DNA from: Agarophyton chilense
Taxonomy: Eukaryota > Rhodophyta > Florideophyceae > Gracilariales > Gracilariaceae
Length of the DNA stretch: 64,000 nt
Direction: 5' to 3'
Assembly: GCA_030374765.1 (NCBI GenBank)
Contig: JARGXX010000022.1
Span: forward strand, 1,054,001 to 1,118,000
This document shows, in pieces, positions 10,607 through 63,737 of the stretch. The position numbers and the translations under genes were made by a program. The notes beneath the pieces were generated by a model. That model was not told where the DNA came from and did not search any database. It saw only the letters and a program-made list of their open reading frames with translations. How positions within the stretch are numbered: the first letter of the stretch is position 1; each line of letters opens with the position of its first letter.

Positions 10607-12433
10607 TCAAAGAGACGTGCGAGCACGCAGGTTCGCAAGAAGCTGTGCGCGATCACCCTCAACTTGGTCCACGGGAAAGCCCGCATCTAAGAGGAACTGC
10701 CTCAGCGGATCCAAGCCTGGATCTTCGACCGGCACTGCACTCGGTTGTTGGGTAAACCCATGAGAGTACTCTTGAGCAACTCCTGCCGCTGCGGATTGAT
10801 CGACGGAAGTCGCTACGCCTGCCAGCTCTGGCTCGTCCTCGTAACCGAGTTCGGCCTCAGCTCCCGGCGCTTCCTCACACGGTTCCTCTCCGTTCTCGGA
10901 TGGAGTAGCATCGTACAAGTATCCAGTAAGCTGGTTCGGTGGCATGTCACGCGGGTTCTCCCGAAGAAAGCGAGCCTGCTCGGAGGTGATCAACTGGCGC
11001 GTCCAGGGGTCGTACCAAACGAGATCTCCAGCACTTGCTGTTCGTCCAGGAGAATGGTCGTGGTGTCTTGCACGGGTTCCGCGAGCGGATTAATCAGCTG
11101 GCACTCCAGACCAATCGACACTGTCGATCAAATCCACAAGATGGAGGAAGTCGGCATGGTTCGCACGGGATCCCAAGACAAGGGAAAGATCGAGTTCTCT
11201 TGCATACTTTCGGGCTGTAGGCGACATGTACCAAACTCTAAAGATATCATAACCATCCCACAGGAGGAAGACGGCCATCTTGGCGATAAACTCGGTATAA
11301 ACCACCGTCCAATATCTCGAGAACGGGTCGTTAACCAACGCGGACCCGATGTAGGAGAGCGCCTGTGGGAGCTCCACAGGGCAACCACGGGGACTTTCGA
11401 TCGCCGCCAAATGCTCCGTATTACCGATGTAGCGCCCGAAGCGCGCGTTCCGCCGGACGCGGTCAATCTCGATCATTTGATACGGCACCAAATAGCCCAA
11501 ACGTGATCGAGTACGACGTTCCCAACGGAGATAATCCCAATAGGGAATTTCACGCTTTCGGAGGAAGCGAAACTCCGCACGGAGAAGAGGTTGCTGAAAG
11601 CAAAGAGCTGCATCACGCACACCGCGCACACCGCGCCAACCGCTAACATCGACTTCAACGAGAGTCTCGATATACGAGTAAACTTCACCGTCTGTACGGG
11701 CTTTCCAGGTATCTAGTTCCCAGTCCTGCGGGAGGAGAACCGTACTGATGAATCGAAGAAGACGCTTGTAAATCAGCTTGGTGAACCGCGTACGGGCTTC
11801 GGAAAAGGTTTCCGTTGAATATTCTGCAATCGCGTTGTCTGGCAAAGCCATATGGCTCGCCCAGTCGTCGCTATAAATCGCGTGTTCCGGAATACCGTCA
11901 GAGAAGTACCCACCGTGTACATACTGTTGTATCAACGCTTCATCGTGGATAGCAACTGGATCAAACCAGGGCGCTTGCGCGAAAAGTTCAACGTTGTCGA
12001 GAGGATCTCGTCAATAGCAATCCGCAGGGTTCGAGTAGCTCCGCTGAGCACGACAAGAAGGAGCTCGAATCACACCCGCAGAGGCGACGTAAGCCGCGTT
12101 CGGCATCGGAGCCACGGTTGGCTGAGGTAACGGTACCGACCGGAATCCGGTGTACGGGGTAGGGAACGAACGGTATGGACCGAGTTGAGCAGTAGGATGC
12201 GACGCAAAACCAGAAGTGTTTGACGGAGCCCCAGAAGGCACATCCCCAGAGGAGGGCTGAAACGGGTTGGACCCGGCGTTCGGATCCATCGCTAGAGATC
12301 GAGCTAAAGAGCGGTGAGGAAGAGAATGCTGTTGGGAACTGTAAGAGTTGGTAGTGGGGCGAGGAATTCGTGATGACGATGAGTACCCGGAACACCGATC
12401 CGACTGCGTATAAACGCTTCTTGCGTCCCCCAT
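10607..12433 (-). pseudogene. Element A antisense gene (unknown protein), two stops
   Basis: Three minus-strand blocks lie in the same frame: 12433-12011, 11935-11090 and 10993-10607. They form one ~609-codon gene broken by an in-frame stop at the end of the first block and another at the end of the second. The ATG at 12431-12433 is 25 bp from the 3' LTR. The protein matches the antisense protein of element B: APWFDPVAIHDEALI, LRAEFRFLRKRE, SRLGYLVPYQMIEIDR, FLLWDGYDIFRVWYM, DPWTRQLITSEQA and LRQFLLDAGF, each at the equivalent position. I know no family with these motifs. No membrane anchor typical of an envelope protein is evident. Confidence 0.75.
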
Positions 12434-12447: not shown

Positions 12448-12457
12448 GAGGGGGGTA
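12448..12457 (+). promoter_or_regulatory. Element A polypurine tract
   Basis: GAGGGGGGTA immediately before the 3' LTR: a purine run that primes plus-strand DNA in LTR elements. Confidence 0.7.
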
Positions 12458-14774: not shown

Positions 14775-16688
14775 TTAGTTGGAAGAACCCGGATTACCGT
14801 GCGCGCCAGCCGAATCGCTAGCGGAGTTACTCCCGCCGGCCAGGCGTGCCACGAGGGCGTCTCTCATCGTACCGATGTCGCCGCTCGCCGCTTGCGCGTT
14901 CAGTCCGGCATTCTGAAGGAACTGGGAGATCACGGCCGCCTCTGGACGTATGGGAACCTCGATAACTTCCGGTTCGTCCGGCAACGCCGCCGCCACTGGA
15001 TCGACGACCGCACCTGCGTGAGTCGCTCCCTGCGCCGGCTGCGCCGTGGTATCGGCACCATCGGGGTCTCTCACGTCTTCCATGATCTCGTCGCCACGGT
15101 ATTCGCCCCCCTTCTCCGTTAGATCATCACCGCCATAGGCGTAGTAGAAGTCATCCGAGTTGACAAACCCCACGGGGTGCCCGTATGGTATGCCTCGCGG
15201 AGCCATCCGGAGTGCCGACGCCTCCGCCTCGGAGATCTTTTGCTGCTCCCATGGGTTAAAGAAGATGAAATCTCCCGCCAACGGCGTGCGACGCCTCGGA
15301 GACCGATCAGCCCCACAGGCTTCTTGACCACGGCCGCTCTACCGGACAGGCACGAAAGCCCAGTCGACACGCTCAATGATGTCGATGAGCTCCTGAGCTT
15401 CATCAGCGTTATTGACACCTCCAAGAGGGAGTTAAAGGTCCAGCTGCCTGATGTAACCACGCAAGCGCGGAGGAAGATACCACAGTCGATACTGGTCGTA
15501 GCCTTCCCACAAGATGTACGCCGCAGCGCGGACTGCCCATTCGGTTAAAACCACAGACCATAAGCCGGAGTGCGGATCCTCGATGAGGTACGAGCCCAAA
15601 TAGGAGACGACTGGAGGCAACTCCACGTAAGATCCCCGGCACACCTTGACAGAGGCCCACCACCCAGGCAGGGGAACGTATCGCCCGAACTGATAGAAGG
15701 GACTAACCCGGTTTGTCTCCGTGTTCTGATAAGGGACAAGGAACCCAAGGCGAGATCTGCCCCGACGCTCCTCGCGGATGAAGTTCGGTAACCACCGATA
15801 TCGGGACTCACGACGAAGATGACGGAACTCGGCGCGAATGATCGGACGGACCCAGCAGATCGCTTCTTGACGCGATCGCGGTTGACCGCGCCATGCGTAA
15901 GTTTCGAACGCCGCAAGGCGGTCACAATAGCCGATCTCACCCTGCGTCCGGTACATCCGTAGGTCGAAGCCGAACTCATCGGGGATGGGGTATTGAAAGT
16001 TTGCCCGGTTGATCCGTGAGTAGCCGATGCAGACGAAGGTACTATGTGCCTCTTCCGCCGACTCGCGCCTTCGCCGCAGAATCGCGTGATTGGGAACCGC
16101 CACACGGCGTCGCCAATCCCACGAAGTGGTGATCAAAGCCGGCAACTCGCCCGGGAGACGCGCATTGCCATCAGCATACGACGCCACGAGTTCTTCGTCG
16201 AAGACCGCTGCCGGATGGAACCACGGAGCTCTCCGGAGAATCGCCGCATGTTGACGCGGGTTTAAACCGACGAGATCGTCGTAACTGGGCCAGGTGTCCT
16301 CCGCAGGAGTGATGTGGCTTGAAGCTTCAACGGGACCCCGGAATCGGCTCGGCGCGGTTGACGAAGCACTCCCCCATGGAAGGGGAGCCGAATGGAAACC
16401 GGAGAAGTAACCCCGGCGGGGATTGTTACCACTGTTCATCAATAATACTGGTCGCCGAGGTATCCAAATGTGGTCGCTGGAAGTTGGTGCACGATGCAGA
16501 GGAACGCTCGAAGTTCGAGGAGTTGTTACCGCGTTGGTGCGTTTGTCATTGGGTTGTGCAGCTCTGCCTTCGACAGTCGAGTGGTCGCTGGACGCGTTAC
16601 GCGGCTCGCTTTTATGCCGCTTGGACCATTGCCTTCCCGCAATGTCGGTGGCGTGTTCGTCACCTAAGGAGGGGGATATCAAGTGCAA
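14775..16688 (-). pseudogene. Element E antisense gene (unknown protein), two stops
   Basis: One frame from 16688 down to 14775, broken by two stops: TAA at 15432-15434 and TAG about 90 bp further on. In sister copy F both are CAA/CAG codons, so they are C-to-T changes. The likely ATG of F (61847) is ATT here, so the start is also lost; upstream the frame runs through the polypurine tract into the LTR. The protein is nearly identical to F and clearly homologous to B: YRTQGEIGYCDRLA, RPIIRAEFR, GFLVPYQNTETNR, LPPVVSYLGSYLIEDP, WAVRAAAYILWEGYDQY, GDFIFFNPWEQQ, and the C-terminal AVISQFLQNAGLNAQAASGD. The function is unknown. Confidence 0.8.
16666..16678 (+). promoter_or_regulatory. Element E polypurine tract
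   Basis: AAGGAGGGGGATA directly before the LTR. The same tract occurs in B and F. Confidence 0.7.
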
Positions 16689-25722: not shown

Positions 25723-25727
25723 ATAAT

Positions 25728-26521
25728 TGAAGTGCAACCCTCGTGAGGGCCGTTTTCCAGGACTTGGTTGTTTTTCCGCCTCGGGCGATATTTGTGAGAT
25801 CTATGAGTAATACCGCTACTAGCGGGCTGGCGTAGCCAGGTGTATACGCGTTGTACGCGAAGTGCACCGGCGGCCGTGCGCCGTGGCCCCGATTCGGGTG
25901 TGACTTACCCACGTGTACCACGGGTGGCCCAGGACAGGTTGGCACAGCATAGCTGGATATTTCTCTATTTGTTTAGCTTTATTACACTAGGTTAGGGAGC
26001 TCTCTACAGTAGTCTACACTATATAGTGACAGGGCGATCTCGCCCTGACACTCAGTAAACCTCCCCAACCAGGGTTCTTGGCTCTAAGTCTTTTTCCGCT
26101 TTCGCGAGTCTTCCACACTCTACGGAGGTGAAGCCGCGTTACTAACGGTAGACTTATCCACCCTGCGTCAACAGGAGACTCACCGCTTCTAGCGTGTATA
26201 TCTTTCATACCACTGCCGTGTTCTCGCCCCAGTATTGGGTTTGCTACATATTTCTTTTGGCTCTCGTGGCCCATGCCCTCGATCGCCCCCACTGGGTGGT
26301 CCCCCCTTTATCACTTGCCCACTCCCGTGGAATACAGCTCATACCTGGTCTGCTCCCTTCTAGCATCCTGCACTCTCCCCGCTTGGCGTGCCGGTGAACC
26401 TCGGCCTTACACCCCGACTTAGTCGTGTTCACTCCGGAGAGGCTCCGTCGCCGTGCTACCCTCCTTGGAGGAAGACTCGGACATCTTCGTGTGTTTCCGC
26501 CGCCCTTGGCGTTGCACTACA
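25728..26521 (+). repeat. Element B 5' LTR
   Basis: 794 bp with inverted ends TGAAGTGCAAC...GTTGCACTACA. It contains TCGCCCCAGTATTGGGTTT (26224-26242) and GGCCTTACACCCC (26403-26415), both shared with other LTR families here. Confidence 0.95.
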
Positions 26522-26524
26522 AAC

Positions 26525-26542
26525 TGGTCTCCCGACTTAGAA
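26525..26542 (+). promoter_or_regulatory. Element B primer-binding site
   Basis: TGGTCTCCCGACTTAGAA, three bases after the LTR. It matches those of A and C with one change each. Confidence 0.82.
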
Positions 26543-26681
26543 GGCTAAGCGGACCTGGTTTGGTTGTTTTTCACATTGCTCTGCTGTCTTCTCTCGTCGA
26601 GATCTGCTTTCCAATTTCTTGGTTCGGACCCACTTGGTGGACGCTTTTGTTGTCCTATTCTTAGTGGTCAACGCTACAACC

Positions 26682-28811: not shown

Positions 28812-31800
28812 TTTCGGGAGTCTCCCCTTCGGGAGAGGCGTCCCCAACAGTGAGGTTGACGACGCCCGAGGCGTCTCCGCCTCGCTCCCCGGTAACAATC
28901 CTCACGAGGAAACAGGCCGTCTCAGACGTGGACTCTGAACACTTTGGTGTTCTATGTCGACCGTGGAAACTTGTTCTTAACCGCCGGTTCCCGGATAGAG
29001 TCTTAGTAATGGCCAAGCGCAATTACAAGGTGTATGCCGACCTTGGCCTTTCTACCCAGTTTATGGTTCGAGTCCTTACTGTTTTGGACACAGGTGCTGG
29101 TCCGAATTTCATCGTGGAGTCGCTGCTGCCCCCGCCCTTGCGGTCTCAGATCCGCCTTGGCGTGGCGCCCGACGTCGCGGACGCGAATAACAACCCGTTG
29201 TCAACGGTTGGAACCGTCGCTCTCGTCGTTCGCTTGGGCTCCTTCGTGGTGAAACTCGACTTTATTGTATGCCGGAAATTGGCTGCCCCCATCATCTTGG
29301 GATGTGACTTCTGTGACAGATTTGTTGACGCCATAAGGCCCCACTTAAAGCGTGTTGAGATGGAAGACGGCTCGTCGGTCCCGATTGTCCGTCGTCCGCT
29401 GCGGCGTGCCTCCAAGAAGCACGTACCGCTCCCTGCCGCGCAGGAACCTCCACCCGCTTCTCGGGAGTCTACCAAGCTCCGCGTGGCTGCATCTGTCCGA
29501 ATCCCGCCAGAGTCCCAAGTATGGGTGCGTGTCACTTCCCGTCAACACGGTTTACGAGTCATTCAGCCTCTCTCATCTCTGTACGATGGATATCAACTCG
29601 CCGTGGCGAATGGAGTCGCGCAGATTGTCCCAGACAAGGCGTTCACCGTGCTCGTTGCCAATCTGGGCTCCACCCCCCAGTCACTGGTGAAAAACCAAGT
29701 TATTGGATCGGTAATGCCTCACCCCACCGCGATGGTCCCCACTAGGCTGACCGCTGCCGAAGTCCTCGGTCTCGTTCACTCTAAGGAGCGGGAGGAAGCT
29801 GCCGTCCAATCACCGAATGATTCGGAATCGCAACCTGCCGAAACAGAAAAGAAGCCCGTTCCGACGAGTTACGACCGGGTAGACCCCGTGAAAGAACTCG
29901 AGGAACTCGACCTCGGTCATGTACCGGAGTCACACCGTGAAAGTCTGCGTGAGATGTTACGGCAGTTTACCACAATGTGGGATGGCTCTCTTGGTGAGAT
30001 AAATACAACGGAACACCGGATAGATTTATTGACGAACACCCGACCGGTGGCTCAACACCCTTACAGGGCAGGCCCCAAGGCTCGAGAAGAGGAACAGTTC
30101 CAAGTGGACAAAATGCTCCGAGCTGGAGTGATCGAACCGGCTCAGTCGCCGTGGGCATCCCCAGTGGTACTGGCTCCGAAACCCGATGGGTCCTGGCGCT
30201 TTTGCATCGACTACCGTCGCTTGAATGATGTTACCGTCAAGGACGTGTATCCGATCCCACGAATGGATGAGTACATCGACTCTCTTGGCACTGCTACCGT
30301 GTTCACGGCTTTGGACGCCAATTGGGGATATTGGCAGGTTCCCGTTAGGGAGGAGGACCAAGATAAGACTGCGTTTGTCTGTCACTCGGGACTCTACCGT
30401 TTCAAACGGATGCCTTTTGGTCTAACCAATGCTCCCGCTACCTTTCAGCGTGCTATCGACATTTTGTTGGCCCGCTTTAAGTGGCGTACTTGCCTCGTCT
30501 ATTTGGACGATATCATTGTATTCTCAGACAATCTGGATGACCATCTCACCCAAGTCAGAGACATAATGACCACGCTACGTGACGCTGGAATAACCCTCAA
30601 ACTGAGGAAATGTGAGTTCTTTACCGATACTGTGAAGTATCTCGGGCACATTATCCGTCCTGGACGTGTAATGATCGAGGAAGCTCGAGTGAGATCCCTT
30701 CGCAAGGCGAAAGAACCCGCTACCCAGACGGAACTGCGCTCCTTTCTAGGATTGGTCAACGTCTACCGACGGTTTATCCCTAACTTCGCTGACATCGCGG
30801 CCCCCTTGAACGCGCTTCTGCGGAAAGGTCAACCACCTAAACTGGACGCCTTTACGTCCGCCCAGACGGATGCTTTTAACTCCCTTAGGGAGGCTGTCAC
30901 ATCAGCACCGATTCTATCGTTACCGAAACCCGGACTACCGTTTTCCGTGGACACAGACTCTAGCGACTACCAGGTAGGCTGTGCGCTCTTTCAAAATACT
31001 CCCGAAGGAGAACGCAAACCCATTGGGTACTGGTCCCGCTCGCTCAATGTCCACGAGCGGAACTACTCCGTGTCGGAGAAGGAGTGCCTCGCAGTTGTAT
31101 GGGCCCTCTATACACTCCGCCCCTACCTCATGGGTGTGCACTTTACCGTTTACACGGATCACTCGTCCCTACGATGGCTCATGACCATCTCGGAACCGTC
31201 AGGCCGCTTAATGCGTTGGAGACTCCGCCTCGCGGAATATGACTTTGAAGTGATCTACAAGAAGGGCACTCAGAACGCGCAAGCGGACGCGCTCTCGCGT
31301 TTACCCACGAATGGGGAAGCTCTAGCCGTCGATGACGAGGATATACCTTGCTTCGTCGTAGACGACGGAACACCGGAGGACCCAGATTGGTTACACGATA
31401 AATGGAACGAAGGCCCAGAATCGGATGATGATATTGACGCATTGCTCGTCTCGGACGACTCAGAGAAACCCCCGCCGGGTAATTTTGTGCCGATACCCCC
31501 GGAGGATATGGTCAGAGAACAGCAGGGTGACCCCTTCTGTACGAAGATTCGCGCCTGGCTTAATGGCGGTGCACAACTCCCTTTCGAGGTGAACGATCTT
31601 GGATACCTCGTCAGGACGGTTCAGTCATCCCCACAAGTCGTGGTGCCGCATACTCTACAGTCTAGAGTTTTGCATCTATCGCACTATGCGAAACTTGGTG
31701 GACACGCCGGTGGACGGAAACTCTACCTCACTTTGCGAAGGAACTTCTACTGGCCCGCCCTGGCGGTGGATTGCTACACAACGGTGGCTCAGCCCACTGC

Positions 31801-32290
31801 CGTGGTTTCCAGACCTTCTGCGTTACCACACCCTACCCGGGGACTCTCTGACTTGCCGATCTTATCAGACCAAGGCCAGAATGGCCTCTCTTCTCTCACG
31901 CCACGGCGCGGTGTCTACCCCCGCCCGTTGGGCGTTTCAACCACTCCCCATGCCGCTCCGTCTCAGGAGGGGGAGGAGGCTCATAACTCTCGTCGAGAGA
32001 CGGAAACCGCTTCGTCGCGTCATGACAACCGTGGTGCACGGACTCCTGGACACACCAGCAAGAACAACGGTGACCCGGACGTCCCGTCTACCGACGTGCC
32101 ATCTCCACATTTGCGCGCTACAGCCGTTGCTGAACCCTCTATGGGAAGCGCCACCGCATCTGCGTCTGATCGCACTCCCCACGGGGACTCTACTCGACAG
32201 GACGCACCACGTAGTGGAAGCCCCCTCGCCGAAGCGAAACCGAAATCGTCGCAGGATGCTGTTCGCCCCTCGCGATACTGGACCGGCTAG
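28812..32290 (+). CDS. Element B pol: protease, RT, RNase H, truncated integrase
   Basis: Open frame from 28775 to 32290. The protease has LDTGAGPNF at about 29087. The RT has VVLAPKPDGSWRFCIDYR, ALDANWGYWQVPV, MPFGLTNAPATFQ and the active site YLDDIIVFS at about 30500. RNase H has FSVDTDSSDYQVGCALFQ, TDHSSLRWLM and ADALSRL. The integrase begins with HYAKLGGHAGGRKLYLTLR and FYWPALAVDCYTTV. Near 31780 it jumps to TAVVSRPSALPHP, the Pro-rich tail that follows the GPF module in element E, so the D,D,E core and GPF module are missing in frame. A shift near 32270 moves the remaining tail into another frame. Confidence 0.93.
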
Positions 32291-33563
32291 GCCGTCGAGC
32301 GTTGACCCGCAGCCCGTGGGTCACGGTTCGTCGACACCAGCTACGCTGGAAAACTTAGAGAACGCCCTCGCAGGCCCCTCTAAACCGAATCGATCGGAAG
32401 TGGTCCCTCGTACTGTACGGCAGGACACACTGGCTAAGCCGGGCAAGCACACCGTAGCAGACGGGAGATTCACACCCAGCACGCTTGATGCTGGTTCAAA
32501 ACCCGCGCGAAGTGGCGGACGCACTCCGAGTGTCTCGGTTGACCCCGACAGCGTTGTCGAAGGCGCACCGGTCACCCCGGAGAAGGTGCCCGTCAAGGAC
32601 GGAAGCAACTCGTCGCCGAGTGAAGTTGAACCCTCGAAAGGGATAGTTGAGGACAAACTCGCTCCCCGCAGGGGTTCCTCGCCGCGCACTTCGCCGCCCG
32701 TTGGTGAGGAAGGCACGGTTGACCCGGAGTTGCACGCCCGTCGCGGTACTGTGTCGCTTAAGCGAGCAGACATACCTGCAGCGCCGTTGCACACGCCCTC
32801 ACGTGAGGAGGCGGAACGCAGCACTGCGCGGAGTACTCCCAGCCATCAGCCGGACGTGTCACGTGACCAGACGACACCCGGCTCGGGAGATACGCCAATC
32901 AACGCCCAAGGCGGCTCACCCGGCAAGGCACGACGCCCCGTGATGAAACCGCCTCCCGCGTCAAGTTCAGCACCGTCGCGACGGATTTCACCCCGACGAC
33001 TCGCGGAACGCGACCGCGAAACCCAGCCTTGGGATGAGTCCGCGTTCCCCCGAAGGGTAGCCTCTGCACGAGAACTCTCGGAAAGCATTTCGACCCAAAA
33101 ACTGGGAGAATTGCCCCACGGGAAGGCCTCCGGCCGAAGCCGTCAAACTGACGCTCTTCGTCATGACGCCTTGGCGGAAGCAACCCGCCAAGCGGCCAAG
33201 GCAACCCGGAACCCACTTCGTTCCCCTACCCAGGGCATGGAAAGGCAACGCCAACCCATGGACCCCTCGGGGGAAGGGCACAGTAGCCCACACGCACCCG
33301 CGGACGTACACCGGTTTGGTCCGGTGACGCTTACACCGCAAGGGCGGGAAGTCTACGAGAAGGAGTTCGTGGTCGACCACATAGTGGAGCACTCATACCA
33401 TCCGGAGGGTTATATTCAATACCTCGTCCGTTGGTACGGTTTAGGGCCCGAATGGGATTCGGATGAGCCGATGGAACATCTCCCACGTTCGAAGGTGGTG
33501 TCATATCACCGCAGAACGCGGACGGGAATCCCGGCATCGGTTGTTAAAGCCCAGGTGGGATAA
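32265..33563 (+). pseudogene. Element B pol tail and chromodomain
   Basis: The low-complexity Pro/Ser/Arg tail continues pol after a frameshift. The chromodomain at about 33340-33500 (FVVDHIVEHSYHPEGYIQYL, then RWYGLGPEWDSDEPMEHLP) ends the protein at VKAQVG. It is expected to bind a methylated lysine on a histone tail. The domain sequence is intact, but whether it is made depends on crossing the frameshift. Confidence 0.85.
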
Positions 33564-33741
33564 CACCCACCTCGGTGGAAGAGAAAAGAGAAGTAGGTTT
33601 GCTTGAGAACAGGTTAGTGAAGAAAGGTTTTGGGTTACACAAGTCACTTGGTTTTTATTCGAAGCTATCGATGGAATACCGAGCACTCGGGATACTACTC
33701 TAAGTCACAAGGGAAACTCCCCATCGGGATCGCGTGCCCCG
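33564..33741. other. Gap between converging pol and antisense genes of element B
   Basis: 178 bp without a gene. Both genes end here tail to tail. A purine-rich stretch (GGTGGAAGAGAAAAGAGAAG) follows the pol stop. Confidence 0.5.
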
Positions 33742-35679
33742 TCACGGGTTCGGCTCACCACCCCCGGGTTGGTTACCTCCCTGGAGGCGGGTGATCAAGG
33801 CCTCGCGCATCGCGGCAACATCGCCCCTCGCTGCGTTGGTCCCCAGCCCCACCTGTCGCAGGAACTGGGAGATCACGGCCGCTTGACCCGCCGGAGCGGA
33901 GCTCGCATCGCCTGGGGCGGACGCCCCACCACTTGGGAGATTCACCGGTGGAACCGGAGGTGGTCCAGCTACCGCATACTCCGACCCAGCCCCCGCGGGG
34001 TTATTCAAACCCGCGTAAGGCGTGGCTGGCGTCCCCGCGTTAGAGGGACCTTCCGCTTCGGATCCCTCGACCTCCGCCTCGGCGTACGCTTCCCCGTCGT
34101 CGGGTTCGTTGTCCACCATTGGATCGTCGCCGTCGTAGACGTGGCAATATTCATCCGCGTCCACGAAACCGATGGGATGCCCCTCGGGGATATGGCGTGG
34201 TGCAAACCGGAGTTCGTTCGCTTCCTCCGCGGAGATTTCGTGCCCTTCCCAGGGGTCAAAGTATACGAAATCACCTCCCAAGGGAGTACGCCTTCCTGGT
34301 GACAGGTCCTGACCCCGGCTACCCACGGTGCGCCCACTTTGTTCAATCGGAACGGCAGTCCAGTCCAACTGGTCGATGTAATCGAGAAGACCCGCCACTT
34401 CCCCGGCGTTGGTTACTCCACCAAGTGGGATGCTCAGGTCCAGGCTGCGAATCGCGGACCTCAACCGGAACGGGAGGAACCACAGTCTGTACTGGTCATA
34501 CACCTCCCAGAGGAGGAACACCGCCGCGCGGACTGCCCATTCGGTAATCACCACGGACCACAGTCCGGACTCGGGATCCTCGATGAGGTACGAACCGTAA
34601 TACGTGATGACGGGTGGCAGCTCGATGTAACAGCCCCGGCAGGCCTCGAGGTTCGACCACCACGGTGGAATGAGGACATAGCGACCCCGTCGGTCGGCCA
34701 CGCGAAGGCGTTCGATCTCCACGTTCTGATACGGGACCAAATACCCGAATCGGGATCGTGCTCGACGCTCGAAGCGGATCAGGGCGAGGAAGTTGGCCCG
34801 CGCAAGTCGACGCATGTAGCGGAATTCTGCCCGGATAATCGGTCGCGTCCAGCACATGGCCCTTTGCCGTGCTATCGGGATGCCCCTCCACGAGAGTGTT
34901 TCCAAACCCGCCAGGCGGTCGACGTAACCAATCTCACCTTGAGTGCGGTAAAGCCAAATGTCGGTGCCGAGACCATCGGGGATGGGATATTCGAAAGGAG
35001 CCCGGCGAAGCCGTTGATGGCCAAGAAGGACGAATGCCGCATGAGCGGAAGCCGAGGTTTCCCTACCCCGGCGCGCCACAGCGTGGACCGGAACCGCTAC
35101 GCGGCGTCGCCAATCCAACGAAGTTGTCGCCACGGCCGGAATATCGCCCGGAAGCATCCCGTTTCCATCGGTGTACATCGCTATGAGCGCTTCGTTTAAC
35201 ACCGCAATCGGGTGGAACCACGGCGCAAGCCGGAGAACGGACGCATGATGCCCAGGATGGCGCCCGACAAGCATGTCGTATGGCGGCCACCCTCTCGGGG
35301 GGAACATTCCGTACGGAGCAGCAGCCGCGTTTGCGGTAGGAATCTGCGGCGCAGCCGATGACGCGCTTTGCGGAAGCAGAGCGGACCGGAGGCCGGAGAA
35401 GTACCCCACAGGGAGACGGTTGGGTTGATTGTTTTGGTTGCTCATCGGTGAGCGAAGAGGCCAGATGACCGGAAGAGGAGACCGGCGAAGCGGGAGACGA
35501 TGCCGAGGAATCGGAGGACTGGCACGCAAGGATGCGGATTCGGTTGAGATGGAACGTTGAGAACGGTTGTTGCCAGGAGACTGGAGTTTTGCCGCACTGC
35601 GTTTCTTGGCACCGGATGAAGTGGATCCCAGCGAGCTGGTTGCACTCTTATGCATTCGTCTCGGCGCGTCGCCCACCAT
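33742..35679 (-). CDS. Element B antisense gene, 645-residue protein of unknown function (best copy)
   Basis: Uninterrupted on the minus strand. The ATG at 35677-35679 is 36 bp from the 3' LTR, the same distance as in element F. The N terminus (1-100) is Ser/Arg/Pro-rich and basic. The conserved core covers about 130-440: YDMLVGRHPGHHASVL (134-149), APWFHP (152-157), YRTQGEIGYVDRLA (244-257), RPIIRAEFR (279-287), GYLVPYQNVEIERLR (312-326), and a hydrophobic-aromatic segment (354-400) with YLIEDPESGLWSVV and LLWEVYDQYRLW. GGDFVYFDPWE follows at 468-478, then an acidic stretch (508-545), and a C-terminal helix-like motif AVISQFLRQVGLG (601-613). There is no signal peptide, no cysteine motif and no clear membrane span. 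I recognise no family. Homologues in A, E and F keep these motifs although the DNA has diverged, which argues for a real protein. The promoter would have to be in the 3' LTR. Confidence 0.8.
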   Translation of the reverse strand: MVGDAPRRMHKSATSSLGSTSSGAKKRSAAKLQSPGNNRSQRSISTESASLRASPPIPRHRLPLRRSPLPVIWPLRSPMSNQNNQPNRLPVGYFSGLRSALLPQSASSAAPQIPTANAAAAPYGMFPPRGWPPYDMLVGRHPGHHASVLRLAPWFHPIAVLNEALIAMYTDGNGMLPGDIPAVATTSLDWRRRVAVPVHAVARRGRETSASAHAAFVLLGHQRLRRAPFEYPIPDGLGTDIWLYRTQGEIGYVDRLAGLETLSWRGIPIARQRAMCWTRPIIRAEFRYMRRLARANFLALIRFERRARSRFGYLVPYQNVEIERLRVADRRGRYVLIPPWWSNLEACRGCYIELPPVITYYGSYLIEDPESGLWSVVITEWAVRAAVFLLWEVYDQYRLWFLPFRLRSAIRSLDLSIPLGGVTNAGEVAGLLDYIDQLDWTAVPIEQSGRTVGSRGQDLSPGRRTPLGGDFVYFDPWEGHEISAEEANELRFAPRHIPEGHPIGFVDADEYCHVYDGDDPMVDNEPDDGEAYAEAEVEGSEAEGPSNAGTPATPYAGLNNPAGAGSEYAVAGPPPVPPVNLPSGGASAPGDASSAPAGQAAVISQFLRQVGLGTNAARGDVAAMREALITRLQGGNQPGGGEPNP

Positions 35680-35702
35680 CGCGGATGTCGTACTCGCGCC
35701 TC

Positions 35703-35714
35703 AGGAGGGGGATA
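35703..35714 (+). promoter_or_regulatory. Element B polypurine tract
   Basis: AGGAGGGGGATA directly before the 3' LTR. On the other strand it lies in the 5' leader of the antisense gene. Confidence 0.75.
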
Positions 35715-36508
35715 TGAAGTGCAACCCTCGTGAGGGCCGTTTTCCAGGACTTGGTTGTTTTTCCGCCTCGGGCGATACTTGTGAGATCTATGAGTAATAC
35801 CGCTACTAGCGGGCTGGCGTAGCCAGGTGTATACGCGTCGTACGCGAAGTGCACCGGCGGCCGTGCGCCGTGGCCCCGATTCGGGTGTGACTTACCCACG
35901 TGTACCACGGGTGGCCCAGGACAGGTTGGCACAGCATAGCTGGATATTTCTCTATTTGTTTAGCTTTATTACACTAGGTTAGGGAGCTCTCTACAGTAGT
36001 CTACACTATATAGTGCCAGGGCGATCTCGCCCTGACACTCAGTAAACCTCCCCAACCAGGGTTCTTGGCTCTAAGTCTTTTTCCGCTTTCGCGAGTCTTC
36101 CACACTCTACGGAGGTGAAGCCGCGTTACTAACGGTAGACTTATCCACCCTGCGTCAACAGGAGACTCACCGCTTCTAGCGTGTATATCTTTCATACCAC
36201 TGCCGTGTTCTCGCCCCAGTATTGGGTTTGCTACATATTTCTTTTGGCTCTCGTGGCCCATGCCCCCGATCGCCCCCACTGGGTGGTCCCCCCTTTATCA
36301 CTTGCCCACTCCCGTGGAATACAGCTCATACCTGGTCTGCTCCCTTCTAGCATCCCGCACTCTCCCCGCTTGGCGTGCCGGTGAACCTCGGCCTTACACC
36401 CCGACTTAGTCGTGTTCACTCCGGAGAGGCTCCGTCGCCGTGCTACCCTCCTTGGAGGAAGACTCGGACATCTTCGTGTGTTTCCGCCGCCCTTGGCGTT
36501 GCACTACA
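35715..36508 (+). repeat. Element B 3' LTR
   Basis: 794 bp, same length as the 5' LTR, five substitutions. It is followed by the ATAAT duplication and then by the gag of element D. Confidence 0.95.
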
Positions 36509-36513
36509 ATAAT

Positions 36514-36847
36514 CTAGCTTAGCGGAGATTGCAAGCCTTATATCTTCTTCAGGCTCTTCAACCTTTCCAAAGCGTGTAATGAAAGCTTGCTTTACAGATC
36601 GGTAGTCTTTTGCTTCATCACGAAGTGAGCCATTCACTGCATACGAATCGTAGTAGAATTCGAAAGCCTTGTCTTCGAGGAAGCCAAGCAACTCAAGAGC
36701 CATATCTTCATCGGACTTTCCTCTCATCGCGACATTCTCGAAGTAAAAGAAAAACTTAACAACATCGATGGAAGATCCGTCAAAGCTTGTGAAAACGGAA
36801 CTGGAATCAGAAGAATTGCCTCCTCTAGAGTACCATGTGGGCACCAT
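36514..36847 (-). pseudogene. Element D gag, 5' part
   Basis: The ATG at 36845-36847 lies inside the 5' LTR. The frame reads through the LTR end and across the primer-binding site, then through a gag domain (FFYFENVAMRGKSDEDMALE, FEFYYDSYAV, FITRFGKVEEPEEDI). It stops matching at the insertion of B and resumes at 25722. It is unusual that gag begins in the LTR and encodes across the primer site. Confidence 0.78.
36822..36835 (-). promoter_or_regulatory. Element D primer-binding site
   Basis: Minus-strand TGGTACTCTAGAGG directly after the LTR. It begins TGG as expected for a tRNA 3' CCA. The primer is not identified. It is translated as part of gag. Confidence 0.6.
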
Positions 36848-37912
36848 AACGGGACTGTGATGCAGGGGGCTAAAATTAAAGCAAATAAATCAATGAAAAG
36901 TGCTTCTCGTAGACTCAAAAGCCCCAAAAGATGAAAGCGGCCAAGAAAGAACAAAGGCCAAAGCAGAAAACAGAAGAGTGTGTGGGCCAAAAGGACTCGA
37001 CCCAACACTAATGAAAAATGAAAACAAAGGGAGAGCACAGGCTCAATCTCTTGTAGAACTTCGACGACTTCTTAAAACTTCTTCAAACGACGCGAAACCC
37101 GAGACTTATGTCAAGGGCTACTAAGTGTCAGACACTCGGCTTCCGGTAAGACACTCCGAATGTGAGACAATTTCTGCAGCCTACGTACTTCTGCGCCAAC
37201 CAGAAGCACGCGTATACAATCCCTATAAGACTTCCCGAGGAGAGCTAATGACAGAAAGATATGCCTTCACTCATACAACCAAGCTAGCCTTTTGCGGGAA
37301 AGGTTACACGGCACGTCGCCTGCGGACAGAATCCCGTCCAGCACAACCGTCCGGAAACCACCAGGTCTTTCGACCGTCACTGTTATCCGAGCAAAAGCTC
37401 GAGTGGGGGCTCACAGCTGACAGAAGCGCCGTTGGTACACGCTGCCCGTCTCCCGTCCACGCCTAATGGCGCTTCAACCGGTCTTAGAGACGGTAGTGCC
37501 CCACCCTAATACGCGCTAGCGTTGTGCGCTTTGATGATTGACTATTACGGTTGATTAGGTTGAAAGAATGATTGAAAGATGTGGGGGTGGGGGCTTGAAG
37601 TGTGTGTCGATGGCTTGAGGTGAGTCGAGACTGAAGTCGGCGACTCTGGACCTCCTTTCATAGAGTTCAGAAGCATGCAGAACTACTCAGAAACTAATTT
37701 CCACCCTATGTGCTTCTAGGTTACTCCATTGGCTTCTAGAAGCCGTTGGAGCAGCACACTAACCAATCACGCTGCGCCAAATATGCAAAGCGTGGCGAAA
37801 ATGAGACCGTGACGTCAGCTACAGTAATGACGCTGATGTTCTAGCCTCGTCTGGCACACTCTACACGTGTGTGCCAGCAGTGCAGAACTTTCTACACATT
37901 CCGCGACCCACA
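36836..37912 (-). repeat. Element D 5' LTR
   Basis: 1077 bp. On the minus strand it starts TGTGGGTCGCGG and ends GGTGCCCACA. It is followed at once by TGGTACTCTAGAGG, the likely primer-binding site, which differs from that of A, B and C. The gag ATG lies 12 bp inside its 3' end. Confidence 0.9.
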
Positions 37913-39946: not shown

Positions 39947-41239
39947 TCAACGGCGGCTTTTAGGCTTCTTCTTAACTGGGCTAGTGGTTTTGCTACTATT
40001 CCGACTCCCACTAGAGTTGCTCATCTCATCCTTTGGAACAAATTTCTTAGCTATGGATTTGTAATGCCATTTCCTGACACGAGCTTCCTCTTCTCGTCTA
40101 CGGGCTTCCTTTGCATCCTCACGGGCTTTCTCTTCTCGCCTACGGGATTCCTCTTCTCGCCTACGGGCATCCTCACGGGTTTTCTCTTCTCGCCTACGGG
40201 CTTCCTTTGCATCCTCACGGGCTTTTTCTTCTCGCCTACGGGATTCCTCTGCATACTGAAGGGCTTTCTCTTCTCGCCTACGGGATTCCTCTTCTCGCCT
40301 ACGGGCATCCTCACGGGTTTTCTCTTCTCGCCTACGGGATTCCTTTGCATCCTGACGGGCTTTTTCTTCTCGCCTACGGGCTTCCTTTGCATCCTCACGG
40401 GCTTTCTTTCCATGCTCTAATTCATTAGACACCTTCCGTAGAGGAGAATCAGGGTCAGGATCATTAAACAAAGATTGCGGTTTGTGAGTTCCAAAAGGAC
40501 CAAGATCCGCAGGGCTAGCGCCACGATACACTTGTTTAGGGCCCCATCTGTTTGTATTCGAATCTCTGTCATAGACCTCCACGCGTTGATCTTTCTTGCC
40601 CTCTTCCTTACAGTTTGCGTCCCTGTTGATAATGATGTACTTATCCACCTTCGCCTTTTCGTACTCGGCCACTTTGACATCCGTGTCCGTACTTTCGTTG
40701 TGGCTGGTAATTTCTACAGCTGTTTGGACCTGTCCAGCAACCGGATTTGAGATCCTTCGCGACTTTGGGGAAAGCTGACTTCTTCGCGATGGCGACAACG
40801 GGGCTGCAGTGCTAACATCGGGCCTTCGTATGGTCCTTCTCAATGGGGGTTTCCCAGGAGAGGGAGGTGAACGGGGGATAGCAACACTCTCTTGTGATGC
40901 CGGTGGATATTTGGTCTGGCCTCTGAGATATCGTGCTGTGCCGTGGTTCTGCAAATACTTGGCTATGTTATCGTGGGGCCCTTCTGACATTGGTAGTGCG
41001 ACGAGAATACCTTCCACGTATTCGTATCTTCCATACACTGAAGGGTCTATGTCCAGGTATTCCTCCACCGAGCAGGGCTTGAGATCTAGCGAGCCCATTT
41101 CGGTTCTGGGCGGGGCAGTATCAGACGCTTCGACGAAAGAGGCAGGCCCCGAAGGTGGCGCATTCGGTTGGAGGTCAGATCGATCGCATTCAGGCTCTGG
41201 AGTACAAGGATGCGAACAAGACGGAAGCGGAAACTCCAT
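39947..41239 (-). CDS. Uma2-like (DUF820, PD-(D/E)XK fold) protein with long charged coiled coil
   Basis: 430 residues, uninterrupted. Residues 57-95 (SVEEYLDID, RYEYVEGILVALPMSEGPHD) match the start of the Uma2/DUF820 nuclease-fold domain. Residues 173-215 match its end (VEITSHNES, KVAEYEKAKVDKYIIINRD, QRVEVYDRD). The middle, which normally holds the central PD motif and strands, is replaced at 112-170 by a Pro/Ser/Arg-rich stretch, so nuclease activity is doubtful. Residues 265-378 are repeats of REEKAREDAKEARR type, predicted coiled coil, encoded by near-identical 42-63 bp units. The tail is basic. Cyanobacterial Uma2 proteins often carry a similar C-terminal coiled coil, which suggests origin by transfer; that is inference. 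It is on the opposite strand to the GT13 pseudogene. Confidence 0.65.
   Translation of the reverse strand: MEFPLPSCSHPCTPEPECDRSDLQPNAPPSGPASFVEASDTAPPRTEMGSLDLKPCSVEEYLDIDPSVYGRYEYVEGILVALPMSEGPHDNIAKYLQNHGTARYLRGQTKYPPASQESVAIPRSPPSPGKPPLRRTIRRPDVSTAAPLSPSRRSQLSPKSRRISNPVAGQVQTAVEITSHNESTDTDVKVAEYEKAKVDKYIIINRDANCKEEGKKDQRVEVYDRDSNTNRWGPKQVYRGASPADLGPFGTHKPQSLFNDPDPDSPLRKVSNELEHGKKAREDAKEARRREEKARQDAKESRRREEKTREDARRREEESRRREEKALQYAEESRRREEKAREDAKEARRREEKTREDARRREEESRRREEKAREDAKEARRREEEARVRKWHYKSIAKKFVPKDEMSNSSGSRNSSKTTSPVKKKPKSRR
40075..40415 (-). repeat. Tandem repeat encoding the coiled coil of the Uma2-like protein
   Basis: Plus-strand units such as TTCTCGCCTACGGG recur about every 21 bp, in higher-order blocks of 42-63 bp. 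The period is a multiple of three, so copy-number change keeps the frame. Confidence 0.8.
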
Positions 41240-47309: not shown

Positions 47310-47837
47310 AGTCTGAACTGGCATGTTCATGCTGACCTACGAAACAACTGGACACCCTTTGAATTAACTTCTGATGTTGTCAAGGAGCGATGTGAAGCTC
47401 TTCAGAGCTCAATGAGAGCTCACTATCTGAATTTGAAGGAGGAGGGTTGTAGCGGATGAAAGCAGGGAGCAAGGGATTGGGAATCGTTAGAACCGAAGCG
47501 CTTTACTAACAAAAAAGATGGTTCTACGTCCGATGTTCCGGGTTGCACATTATTGGAAGATGTGTTCAGCTGCTTTGAAACTTGAAGTCAATCCTTTCAC
47601 GACTTGAAAGCCAAATAGAACGACTAATAGCCCTTCCCGTCGCCTCGATGACCTTTCTCAAACTCTGGAAGAGATCCCGAAGAATACAAGTTCATGGCTG
47701 CGTGTAGGAAGCGTGAATGGGATATAGAACACGGCGAAAACAGTAGAAGAAGTTGTGGACTTGAGGTCGTCAACTAATGACGTAGGAGACGGAAGTGATA
47801 AAGACTAACGGGCGTGATTGGTAATGAAGTAGGAGAC

Positions 47838-48017
47838 GTGAGTGTTCTAGGAGCCCCAGTGTCTGGAACTGAAGCCCCCGGGATACGGAGCCCCGACGTA
47901 ATTGTTCTAGGAGCTCCAGAGTCTAGATCTGAAGCCCCTGGGATACGAAGCCCCGACATCAGTGTTCTAGGAGTACCTGCATCCGGATCTGAAGCCCTTG
48001 GGATACCGATTCCCAAC
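47838..48017 (+). repeat. Three 60-bp tandem repeats
   Basis: Units 47838-47897, 47898-47957 and 47958-48017 share TGTTCTAGGAG at the start and GATACGNAGCCCCGA-like ends. In one frame they encode three 20-residue units of the form VLGAP-S-SEAPGIRSPD. The open frame continues to 48047. The setting is the MULE region. Confidence 0.85.
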
Positions 48018-49851: not shown

Positions 49852-49854
49852 TTT

Positions 49855-49872
49855 TTGTCTCCCGACTTAGAA
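49855..49872 (+). promoter_or_regulatory. Element C primer-binding site
   Basis: TTGTCTCCCGACTTAGAA, one base different from B (TGG changed to TTG). It links C to A and B. Confidence 0.72.
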
Positions 49873-50054
49873 TCCCCTAGGAATAATTGAGCGGACCACT
49901 GAAACGAAGAATTATATGGATTCTACCTTTTGGTTTGATTCTCCAACGGACCAGAAGTACAGAAGCAACCGCCACTATGAATGCAGGAAACACACCCAAC
50001 TGAATAGATCATAGGACTCTTATTGCAGGACGAGTTGCCGCTACAACGCCGAAG

Positions 50055-52092: not shown

Positions 52093-52162
52093 CACCATTG
52101 TAAAACGCTTAGAGAGTCTACTCAAGGCAAATCCTCCCTCTTGAAGTACATTCCTCAACTAT

Positions 52163-54698: not shown

Positions 54699-54750
54699 GG
54701 AACTTCTACAGGCGCTGGTCGAAGACGAGTACTGCAATGAAACAGCCTAA

Positions 54751-55790: not shown

Positions 55791-55906
55791 ATACCACGCG
55801 GAAACTCCTACCCCGCTCGACGGGACTATAAAAAATCCCTAAGGACAGTCAACACAGAATTACGACACTAATTAACGGCCTACAGGACACAGCGTCTATT
55901 GATCGG

Positions 55907-56443: not shown

Positions 56444-56617
56444 GGAAGACATGAGAAGCTTTTAAGGTTCGGACGCCGTCTCGGGGCACCCAAGTGGGAA
56501 AGTACAGGAGCAACTTGGGAAAGCACAATCATTACTTTATTTGAGTAACTAGCAGAGGCGTAACAGCCTTCGCTATGACCTCAAGGTTCGCAAAAGCGCT
56601 TTGAACACCAACAGGAC

Positions 56618-58602
56618 TCACTGGGGCGGCGCAGGAGTAACTCCGTCGTCCTCATTGGAAACTGCAGGAGCGAAACCGGGGATAGGATCAACCGAGGGTC
56701 CTACTGGACCAATAAGACCAGCACCAGCGAGCCGAGCACGCTTCTTCTGCGGAGATTCACATGAGGAACTATTGTCACCCTCGAAAGCCTCGCGGTCGCT
56801 CATATTTAGACGATGCCGGGAATCCAAGTCGGCAGTAAACCTCTGTGACATCACTTGTGCATTCTGCTGCAGGAAAGTGACCATAGCGGTCTTCAGATCT
56901 TGACCCTGTTGAAAAACCGCGGTTGTAGCGCGCCGAGCGACGCGGCCAGAAGCAAGCATCCCTCGGGACTGTCTCAATGTCTATCAAAATAGTAATACCA
57001 ACCGTACGGCATTCATGACGGAGATCCGCGGCTGCAGCCGTGATTGAAGCGGTAAATTACGGCAATGGAGAGGACAGAGCGATGTCGACGCCCACAGTGA
57101 ACGTCTGAGCCATCGAATCACCTACAGGACATTCGGTTATGACAGTAACCTCTCCAGGAGGGATATCCCCTTGGGCGACGGGGGGCTCATATGAGAGTTC
57201 ATCCTGAGGACCAGTGCCTGGAGGAGCTGGAGGAGGGGAAGCGGTCGGCAACACAACAGCGGACTCGACCGGAGGATTGACGCACTCCACGGGTAAGATG
57301 AAGGGATCTTCGCCGAATTATTCTCCATCTGACATAACAGCACGAACTAACGGCGTGGCTTCCAAATCAGGCTCAAAACACAAGGGATCGAAACCGATGG
57401 CCTTCGGGTAATAGTCAGGCCCATGACGCGTCGGAATGCCCGATGGTTGTTTCCTCAAAGGGTTGGCGCCATAGGCACAAGTGTCATCCTGAGCCAGTGG
57501 ATGTAGCGGAATCGACGTAAACGAGTCGGTATCGTGGTCATACCGAAGAAATCCGGGAGTCTCGCTCCACTCCACCTGTAGACCATGATCCAAAAAGGAT
57601 CTCGGCCTCCTCGACGGCGAAATGGGTCCAACGGACGATATTCTGGATGCGCAGGTTCCTTAGGAAACGGATCATGATGTCCGGAAGCGGGATTAGACGA
57701 CCTCGAGGACCGGGTATGTGCTCGTCGTGCCATATCCTGCAATCGTCCGAACGGATATTACCACGTACTCCGTACTTCGACGTATCCAAGAATGCCATAA
57801 GGGACATCACGCCGAACTAACCGAAGAGTATATGCCAGGATAACCAAAACCTTCGGTCATTGTCATCGCCCATGAGTTGGGACGATTGATACGCCACTAC
57901 GGACGGCGTGGGAACCAAAAGCAGCGGCGAGATACGCCAGTAGAGGGCCCATTGGTTCTCATCCACGCCGGGAAGCGAGAGATATAACGGAGAACGTTTG
58001 TCTGCGCTCATATTGTGAAACACCACCTGGTGCCAGCAGAAGAAGAACTTCAGGGATTGACGGAGGAGTCCATCGGGCTCATGCATCTCGTTCCAATAGA
58101 CCCTATTGGACATCCAAAACAGGTGGTCATACGGCGGTAGGAAGCACATGAGCGTCAAAAGATTGTGACCCGCGGGAGGAACTCTCACGTAAGGCGAGAT
58201 GAAGTCCTCTTATAGGTCCGAAAGGAGTTTGTTCACCCTGAAATGGTTCTCGGTTTCTTCCTCACAACGGACGTACGGCATGTCCGCTGGAATGAGGGTG
58301 CGACACCGCGTCGCCAATTGCGGATCCACAGGACAATGCAATCAATGGTTATACCACGAGACGCTGCGCGCGTTATTACTGCTCCTCCAGAAATCGGGGA
58401 TCTGAGGGAACCTCCTGGCGTCGAGATACTCATTACAAAACTTCTGGTATTCTTCCACAGAGGACGGCAGAATGGCATGACGCACTGCCCGCGGATTTAG
58501 TCCGATGGTATGTTCATAGCTGTCCCCGGGCTGCTCATGAACCACTTGGTATCCCGAGGAGCTCCCCGCTTGGTTGTTCGAAGCCATGGCGCCGCCGCCC
58601 AC
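56618..58602 (-). pseudogene. Element C antisense gene, divergent and broken
   Basis: Minus-strand blocks in the same place and order as the antisense gene of A, B, E and F. 58602-58342 has SYEHTIGLNPRAVRHAIL, matching SYDDLVGLNPRQHAAIL of E. 58188-57817 has PTPSVVAYQSSQLMGDDNDR, comparable to LPPVVSYLGSYLIEDPHS of E. 57593-57318 has GFLRYDHDTDSFTSI and GIPTRHGPDYYPKAIGFD, comparable to the FDPWE...HPIGFVD stretch of B. 57290-56618 is the Pro-rich and charged C-terminal part. The frame changes several times. Similarity is weak but collinear. The start (58602 or the next Met at 58587) lies about 590 bp from the LTR, unlike the other elements. Confidence 0.5.
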
Positions 58603-61846: not shown

Positions 61847-63737
61847 ATGGCGGGGAGGCAACGGTCCAACCGGCATAAGAGCGAGCCGCGTAACGCGTCC
61901 AGCGACCACTCGACTGTCGAAGGCAGAGCTGCATCACCGAACGACAAACGCAACAACGCGGTAACCACTCCTCGAACTTCGAGCGCGCTTCCGCACCGTA
62001 CGCACACTTTCAGCGACCACATCCCGATTCTTTGGCGACCAGCACTCCCGATGAACGGTGGTAATAATCCCTGCCGGGGTTACTTTTCCGGTTTCCATTC
62101 GGCTCCCCTTTCGCGGGGGAGTGCCTCCTCAACCGCACCGAGCCAATCCCGGGGTCCGGTTGAAGCTTCAAGCCACATCACTCCTGCGGAGCACTCCTGG
62201 CCCAGTTACGACGAACTCGTCGGGTTAAACCCGCGTCAACATGCGGCGATTCTCCGGAGAGCTCCGTGGTTCCATCCGACAGCGGTCTTCGACAAAGAAC
62301 TCGTGGCCGTGTATGCTGATGGCAATGCGCGTCTCCCGGGCGAGCTGGCGGCTTTGATCACCACTTCTTGGGACTGGCGACGCCGAGTGGCGGTTCCCGT
62401 TCACGCGATTCTGCGGCGAAGACGCGAGTCGGCGGAAGAAGCGCAGTGTACCTTCGTCCGCATCGGCTACTCACGGATCAACAGGGCTAACTTCCAATAC
62501 CCCATCCCCGACGAATTCGGCTTCGACCTACGGATGTACCGGACGCAGGGTGAGATCGGCTATTGTGACCGCCTTGCGGCGTTGGAAACTTACGCATGGC
62601 GCGGTCAACCGCGAGCGCGTCAAGAAGCGACCTGCTGGGTCCGTCCGATCATTCGTGCCGAGTTCCGTCGCCTTCGTCGTGAGTCCCGATATCGGTGGTT
62701 ACAGAACTTCGTCCGCGAGGAGCGTCGGGGCAGGTCCCTCTTTTGGTTCCTTGTCCCTCATCAGAACACGGAGATAAATCGGATTAGTCATTTCTACCAG
62801 TTTGGGCGATACGTTTCACTGCCTGGGTGGTGGTCCTCCGTCGAGGTGTGCCGGGGATGTTACGTGGAGTTGCCTCCAGTCGTCTCCTATCTGGGCTCGC
62901 ACCTCATCGAGGATCCGCACTCCGGCTTATGGTCCGTGGTCCTAACCGAATGGGCAGTCCGCGCCGCGGCGTACATCTTGTGGGAAGCCTACGACCACTA
63001 TCGACTGTGGTATCTTCCTCCGCGTTTTGCGTGGTTACATCCGGCAGCTGGACCTTCAACTCCCTCTTGGAGGTGACAATAACGCTGATGAAGCTCAGGA
63101 GCTCATCGACATCATCGGGCGTGTCGACTGGGCTGTCTTGCCTGTCCGGCAGAGCGGCCGTGGTCAAGAAGCCGGTGGGGCTGATCGGTCTCCGGGGCGT
63201 CGCACGCCGTTGGCGGGAGATTTCATCTTCTTTAACCCATGGGAGCAGCAAGAGATCTCCCAGGCGGAGGCGTCGGCACTCCGGATGGCTCCGCGAGGCA
63301 TACCATACGGGCACCCCGTGGGGTTTGTCAACTCGGATGACTTCTACTACGCCTATGGCGGTGATGATCTCCCGGAGGAGGCGGGCGAATACCGTGGCGA
63401 CGAGGTCATTGAGGACGTGGGAGACCCCAATGGTGCCGATACTACGGTGCGGCCGGCGCAGGGAGCGACTCACGCAGGTGCGGTGGTCGATCCAGTGGCA
63501 GCGGCGTTGCCGGACGAACCGGAAGTTATCGAGGTTCCCATATGCCCAGAAACGGTTTTTATCTCCCAGTTCCTTCGGGTTGTTGGACTGAACGCGCAAG
63601 CAGCAAGCGGCGACATCGGTGCGATGAGAGACGCCCTCGCGGCACGCCTGGCCGGCGGGAGTAACCCCGCTAGCGATTCGGGTGGCGCGCACGGCAATCC
63701 GGGTTCTTTCAATTATTCCCTTATGATCTTTGGTTAG
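61847..63737 (+). pseudogene. Element F antisense gene (unknown protein), one frameshift
   Basis: The ATG at 61847 is 36 bp from the LTR edge, the same as in B. The frame runs to 63076 and, after one extra T near 63027, continues to 63737. All motifs of the B protein are present: ELVGLNPRQHAAILRRAP, YRTQGEIGYCDRLA, RPIIRAEFR, LPPVVSYLGSHLIEDP, WAVRAAAYILWEAYDHY, GDFIFFNPWEQQEI, a short acidic part, and VFISQFLRVVGLNAQAASGD. It has no nonsense codon at the two positions where E has stops. A single base separates it from an intact ~630-codon gene. Confidence 0.82.

Follow-up and report, generated by a model that had tools for sequence, protein, structure and literature searches.

An antisense protein gene shared by chromodomain Ty3 elements of the red alga Agarophyton chilense

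A 64,000-nucleotide stretch of the genome of the red alga Agarophyton chilense (assembly GCA_030374765.1, contig JARGXX010000022.1, positions 1,054,001 to 1,118,000; hereafter the window) contains several Ty3-type retrotransposons bounded by long terminal repeats (LTRs), here called elements A to F. One of them, element B, carries a long open reading frame on the strand opposite to gag-pol, between its chromodomain and its 3' LTR. Is this frame a gene, and if so, how would it be expressed and what would its product do for the element? The initial annotation had proposed that A, B, C, E and F, representing three divergent groups, carry the same antisense gene, that it is fully open in B and only weakly conserved in C, and that element D has none. 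From the comparison of these copies with one another and with copies elsewhere in the genome, we conclude that the frame is almost certainly a real protein gene, and the divergence between families indicates that it has been conserved as a protein and kept under purifying selection across the history of the lineage.

The B frame (Table 1) starts with ATG and is open to its stop, as first described: over 645 codons the antisense frame has no internal stop, against 6–18 in each of the five remaining frames. When the B protein was searched against the window with tblastn, it matched element E at 14826–16622 on the minus strand (48.7% over 634 columns), element F at 61847–63701 on the plus strand in two frames (52% and 43%) and element A at 10619–12154 on the minus strand (35% over 544 columns), and a profile added an N-terminal piece of A at 12014–12442. 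A profile built from five families (A, B, E/F and two further families, G and H, introduced below) and run against all six frames of the window recovered every piece of the gene in A, B, E and F, and everything else was noise. The presence of the same gene in these elements is therefore borne out, and the motifs named for it at the outset are visible across families in the alignments. An origin of the gene from gag or pol was also considered and is unsupported, as this profile found only the antisense genes above noise.

Conservation between families follows the codons of the antisense frame. In DNA alignments made blind to frame, the same antisense frame was kept for 98–100% of aligned bases in the pairs B-E, B-G, E-G, B-H and B-A. 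The third antisense codon position was the least conserved between families, with a mismatch of 0.55–0.63 versus 0.20–0.33 at the other two; by codon positions 1, 2 and 3, mismatch was.29/.20/.55 for B-E,.30/.26/.55 for B-G,.32/.25/.61 for E-G,.29/.25/.55 for B-H and.33/.28/.63 for B-A. The codon-based ratio of nonsynonymous to synonymous divergence (dN/dS) over 462 core columns was 0.12–0.32 in six pairs of families, a range to be read as well under 1 because dS is saturated in those pairs and lies out of measurable range in four pairs with A. Together with the excess of third-position mismatch, this is not the picture of an antisense frame with a between-family dN/dS near 1.

An open frame could also arise by chance or mechanically opposite a sense gene, from base composition. 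The GC content near 60% does stretch random frames, and the sense frame whose wobble positions coincide with those of the antisense frame shows 28–46% identity between families, not far under the 33–53% of the antisense frame, in an alignment built from the antisense proteins. That sense frame, however, holds 18–24 stops in each of the six families, the antisense identity is the higher one in all 10 pairs of five families, and independent relatives of the protein occur in other species. More generally, each sense frame is interrupted by 4–24 stops in the copies chosen from all six families, so that the conservation cannot be attributed to a sense-strand frame, and we regard a chance open frame as refuted by these counts, its probability being practically negligible.

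The gene is not confined to the window. The genome (79.8 Mb in 135 contigs) was searched by way of the antisense gene, so the resulting numbers describe element copies that carry it; they are lower bounds for all families, and not every scored row is an independent insertion, since some appear to be exact duplicates of a stretch on another contig. We scored 68 of 1997 first-look candidates for B, 138 of 1545 for A, 100 of 1733 for E/F, 150 of 499 for C and 71 of 1868 for a G-type family, which was found with a protein of Gracilariopsis chorda at 57–71% identity. A sixth family, H, surfaced with the unnamed protein P0002, whose 98 matches are mixed with B and E copies and were left out of the counts. 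The frame persists in many of these copies: a stop-free match is seen in 25 of the 68 B rows, and the whole 645-codon frame is intact from its ATG in 14 of 28 fetched B copies. Long open copies, chosen for being open, were also found in the five other families examined. In the fetched sets of 28 B, 15 G and 15 A copies, the integrase–chromodomain end of B was matched on the opposite strand in 58 of 58.

Beyond these elements the protein has few recognizable relatives. Among the matches scored, which covered at most 8000 candidates per search, named protein relatives came only from Gracilariopsis chorda and Agarophyton chilense, both Gracilariaceae, and the only other relative was one unnamed protein. 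Pieces of the gene (P0001 and P0003–P0016) occur in the public protein sets of these two algae, labelled hypothetical or unnamed. Pfam gave no family match in the B protein at E ≤ 0.1, nothing was found in NCBIfam (three proteins) or PHROGs (two proteins), and there was no match among PDB sequences, among plasmids by tblastn or in IMG/VR contigs. Weak Pfam hits in other members, which lie below the Pfam cut-offs where these are shown, were set aside as noise: E3_binding (E 0.1, two of nine members), DUF7462 (E 0.21, one of nine), DUF5575 (E 0.32, one of three C-type members) and Bubble (E 0.022, a piece of A). These searches agree with the remark in the initial annotation that no such protein was known.

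Element C required a more sensitive comparison. Its window copy gave no tblastn match to the B protein at E ≤ 1, and the profile search reached a best E of 8.1, which is not above noise. Two fetched genomic copies of the C family, picked for frame length, have open antisense frames of 698 and 598 codons; with hhalign, a profile made from these two could be aligned to that of B/E/G/H/A along 140 collinear columns (probability 88, E 2.9e-6). A repeat of this comparison scored 47.7 (probability 72); the controls reached at most 24.2 with shuffled columns (60 shuffles) and 18.0 with the profile reversed. The weak conservation proposed for C is thus borne out.

Element D, in turn, has reverse transcriptase (RT) and integrase on the minus strand, and a chromodomain match was not found in it. 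The 44 bases between the end of its pol frame (21481) and the adjoining LTR-like repeat (20360–21436) leave no room for an antisense gene, which accounts for its reported absence there. D is also the most distant of the elements: in the best stretch, the pol identity of B is 52% to A, 50% to C and 39% to D. A single gain before A, B and C split would fit a gene present in A and C and missing from D, and a loss in D is possible as well. The antisense protein has diverged faster than pol, with 35–37% versus 52% identity between B and A, and a likeness between B and C seen only by profile versus 50% in the best pol stretch. Such a single gain could have been the capture of a host gene in antisense orientation by the ancestor of the elements, for example of a silencing or defence antagonist. 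One old acquisition fits a gene common to families whose pol is about 50% identical in its best stretch, and so does the lack of a match to any known family; weakly against it, no relative outside the elements was recognized among the candidates scored. We consider such a capture quite improbable.

In the copies of B, E, G, H and C selected for an open frame, the protein is 591–655 residues long; the frame of the E-family copy L060 continues up to the limit of the sequence fetched. A nine-row alignment of five families has 53 invariant columns, and the core blocks can be described as ERRxRxR, GYLVPYQN-, ELPP-, DPxSG- and RLW-type motifs (our wording), with an arginine-rich stretch preceding the GYLVPYQN block. 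The N-terminus is basic in B and E, and the core is followed by an acidic stretch, with a net charge of −16 (B) and −11 (E) in one 50-residue block, which is weaker in the other families. Structure models were poor, with mean predicted local distance difference test (pLDDT) scores of 38.9 and 51.5; the better one covers residues 125–505 and has good local confidence mainly at model residues 250–370, and searches with these low-pLDDT models gave no meaningful fold match. With low confidence, a core of about 330 residues is predicted to be mostly helical and a short helical piece is predicted at the C-terminus. We propose a layout of about 590–655 residues with a loose N-terminal tail, the conserved core, an acidic and proline-rich linker and a short C-terminal piece.

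These features bear on the possibility that the product is no regulator but an accessory factor for structure or transport, which would for example join the particle, aid nuclear entry or aid passage between cells. Its size and conserved core would suit such a factor, as would the arginine-rich stretch before the GYLVPYQN block and the basic N-terminus in B and E. The absence of a clear transmembrane stretch (top 19-residue hydropathy of 1.5 in five proteins) argues against it, as does the general experience that proteins of the particle come, as a rule, from the genomic RNA strand. For plant antisense proteins, nuclear entry and accessory roles have been proposed (PMC7264820), and we regard a structural or transport role as unlikely, if the most serious of the alternatives.

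Both ends of the gene are sharply placed in several families. In B, the edge string was found in 25 of the 28 copies examined, and in 23 of these the ATG is 35 bases away from the LTR edge; in G, the distance is 46–49 bases in 10 of 12 copies (15 examined), and in the window copies of A and F it is 24 and 35 bases, so that a start at the LTR edge is seen in four families (A, B, G and, through the F copy, E/F). An ATG only 24–49 bases from the edge, if it is the one used, requires the antisense messenger RNA (mRNA) to begin within the LTR, and an LTR-started antisense mRNA is accordingly implied by the ATG position as probable. Past the stop, AATAAA follows on the antisense strand in four families (A, B, C and G), after 83–85 bases in 27 of 28 B copies, 59–60 bases in 14 of 15 G copies, 53 bases in all 15 A copies and 77 bases in the window copy of C; in dinucleotide shuffles of 120 bases, the chance of each family's AATAAA was 1.6–5.7%. 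In B, A and C, no other AATAAA precedes this post-stop one on the antisense strand of the internal region. Over the internal regions of B (26522–35714), A (3049–12457) and C (49852–59187), the sense strand has no AATAAA versus about 6.1 expected under a first-order model, and the antisense strand has 10 versus about 3.0 expected. The absence on the sense strand matches selection against the genomic RNA being cut short, in a small sample.

Within the LTR of B, the perfect palindrome CACTATATAGTG lies 333 bases upstream of the antisense ATG. In A, the three copies read have TATATA-type sites 321–406 bases upstream of the ATG, the majority of these sites on both strands, and in G one of three copies read has such a site, on the gene strand only. 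A TATA box used in both directions is thus an idea applicable to A and B only. The inferred mRNA would be complementary to about 2 kb of the genomic RNA, and the antisense RNA itself could be the useful product, pairing with the genomic RNA and leaving the protein secondary; control through double-stranded RNA has been proposed for plant elements (PMC7264820). Conservation, however, tracks the antisense codons and not the nucleotides, which an RNA role alone would not produce, and we judge this explanation very improbable.

Antisense extra genes are known from plant Ty3 elements, namely maize Grande gene23, rice RIRE2 and Silene Retand ORF4, which form the class aORF-3R (PMC7264820). The gene described here resembles them in lying between pol and the 3' LTR on the strand opposite to gag-pol and in being conserved as a protein across families. 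No relation to the plant genes was found, with no Pfam match and no plant protein among the hits scored. Retand moreover belongs to a non-chromovirus lineage (PMC11963269), whereas B has a chromodomain and all 58 fetched copies have ends that match it. Grande gene23 is reported to be nuclear and transcribed from its own promoter (PMC7264820, PMC11963269), located in the region upstream of the gene (PMC7264820), whereas the ATG here is at the LTR edge. The TRP28 (transposase 28) domain of Retand gave no Pfam match at E ≤ 1 in nine members or in three C-type members. The brtn gene of the Boty element of Botrytis cinerea is reportedly the subject of a paper by Zhao (2011). It is an antisense extra gene of a fungal element (PMC8365987); the present protein had no fungal protein among the database hits scored. 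Finally, HBZ of human T-cell leukemia virus type 1 (HTLV-1) is likewise antisense and has its promoter within the 3' LTR (PMC7264820; PMC9822710), and an equivalent start is suggested here by the ATG position. HBZ is a basic leucine zipper (bZIP) factor (PMC6950816), whereas the B protein has no bZIP domain (no Pfam family at E ≤ 0.1), and no evolutionary link is claimed.

Chromoviruses are known in red algae (PMC3605345), and among the literature matches listed there was no antisense gene in a red-algal LTR element. As far as these searches show, the novelty lies in the protein family, in the occurrence of such a gene in this phylum and across six families, and in the tight layout of LTR edge and AATAAA. 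Relative to the initial annotation, the G and H families, the LTR-edge start, the antisense AATAAA and the firmer support for C are new.

The explanation that we favour, by a little better than even chances as a whole, is that of an accessory gene of one lineage of red-algal chromodomain Ty3 elements, whose transcription, LTR promoter and nuclear regulatory role are inferred. The 3' LTR would work as a promoter in both directions; the antisense mRNA would start within it, cross its edge, be read from the ATG 24–49 bases on (A, B, F and G) and end at its own AATAAA just past the stop, ahead of the end of pol. In the nucleus, the protein would then regulate either LTR transcription or the genomic RNA and so feed back on the element. 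This feedback role is drawn by analogy with Grande gene23 and HBZ, and that the protein is a regulator of the element at all is a tentative proposal, somewhat short of even. Because selection kept the protein while its DNA diverged, the gene is a good candidate for one with which these elements control their own spread.

Several observations weigh against this explanation. The protein has no recognizable DNA-binding domain, its models are poor, and nothing in the results links it to regulation. In the C frame, the first ATG as read is about 600 bases from the LTR, unlike in the other families; E and F have no AATAAA or ATTAAA in the 310–530 bases read downstream; and the two-way TATA of the LTR was not seen in G, E, F or C. 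Upstream of the ATG, the 3' LTRs of B, A and C have one or two further AATAAA on the antisense strand, for which a reading of the post-stop AATAAA as a private polyadenylation signal must account. Selection, too, is hard to see within families, where the observed over expected ratio of nonsynonymous to synonymous variants was 0.75–0.90 for variants in two copies and 0.64–0.88 for those in three or more, close to neutral. Among the 19 B variants shared by at least four copies, the ratio was 0.65 in the antisense frame and 0.58 and 0.61 in two other frames, and since these are lower, the shared-variant signal of B cannot single out the antisense frame.

Private variants were likewise near neutral (0.85–0.91 in the fetched sets), as were those at the pol end of B used as a control, because most of this variation arose by decay after insertion. 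Variants in at least five copies tilt towards synonymous, with ratios of 0.44 for 14 variants in B and 0.52 for 11 in G. None of the variants in at least three copies makes a stop; there are 32 such variants in B, 24 in G and 11 in A, and about 2.0 stops would be expected over all three families. We discarded the within-family signal as proof or disproof, and the case for selection rests on the comparison between families.

Element B itself spans 25728 to about 36508, LTRs included. Its LTRs are 99.4% identical across a 795-base match and a 5-base target duplication, ATAAT, flanks it at 25723–25727 and 36509–36513, which makes it a young insertion. The frame after pol closes with a chromodomain match in Pfam, so that B has the RT, RNase H, integrase and chromodomain at the integrase end that define a chromovirus, the chromodomain scoring below the Pfam cut-off. 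This frame ends at 33563 and faces the end of the antisense gene (33742) across a gap of 178 bases.

B (25728–36508) sits inside D, a Ty3-type element on the minus strand, whose LTR-like repeats at 20360–21436 and 36836–37912 share 98.3% identity over 1077 bases; from the sequence, B in D is thus read as a young nested insertion. In A, a tandem array of 4.7 copies of a 29-base unit (10362–10498) lies between the chromodomain end and the antisense gene; plant Retand elements often have tandem arrays between pol and the 3' LTR (PMC11963269). Outside the studied elements, tandem arrays occur at 40078–40407 and 47835–48006, with a 138-base unit of 21-base subunits and a 60-base unit.

Table 1. Features of element B and copies of the antisense gene in the window (window positions)
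Feature	Position	Strand	Basis or remark
B 5' LTR	25728..26521	+	LTR match, reading of the sequence
B pol: RT, RNase H, integrase zinc binding	28850..32290	+	Pfam
B chromodomain PF00385	33366..33509	+	E 9.8e-5, 22.6 bits, under the Pfam cut-off of 25.1
B AATAAA	33654..33659	-	83 bases past the stop
B antisense gene	33742..35679	-	open from ATG to stop (645 codons)
B 3' LTR	35715..36508	+	LTR match; ATG of the antisense gene 35 bases off its edge
B LTR palindrome	36004..36015	.	perfect; holds TATATA, readable as a TATA box on both strands
A antisense gene	10607..12433	-	in pieces; ATG 24 bases from the 3' LTR; first base of AATAAA at 10554
E antisense gene	14775..16688	-	in pieces in the window copy
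C antisense gene	56618..58602	-	remote homolog, broken; first base of AATAAA at 56541
F antisense gene	61847..63737	+ (element on minus)	frame shifted in the window copy; ATG 35 bases from the LTR edge

The role of antisense genes in LTR elements is a question in plants and fungi too, and here hundreds of scored copies of such a gene are found in an 80-Mb genome. With several diverged families, clear selection at the protein level and sharply placed ends, they are suited for testing a repeated origin of antisense accessory genes, and also for testing LTRs as two-way promoters. For annotation, such frames already stand in public Gracilariaceae protein sets as hypothetical or unnamed proteins. 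In its fullest form, which we consider rather unlikely, the proposal is that a complete antisense gene evolved here on its own, with a two-way LTR promoter, an ATG at the LTR edge, a private polyadenylation signal, a new regulatory protein family that feeds back on the element and a sense strand cleared of polyadenylation signals. If true, an HBZ-like strategy would exist outside retroviruses with no ancestry shared by the proteins, and the clearance of the sense strand would keep the long genomic RNA from being cut short.
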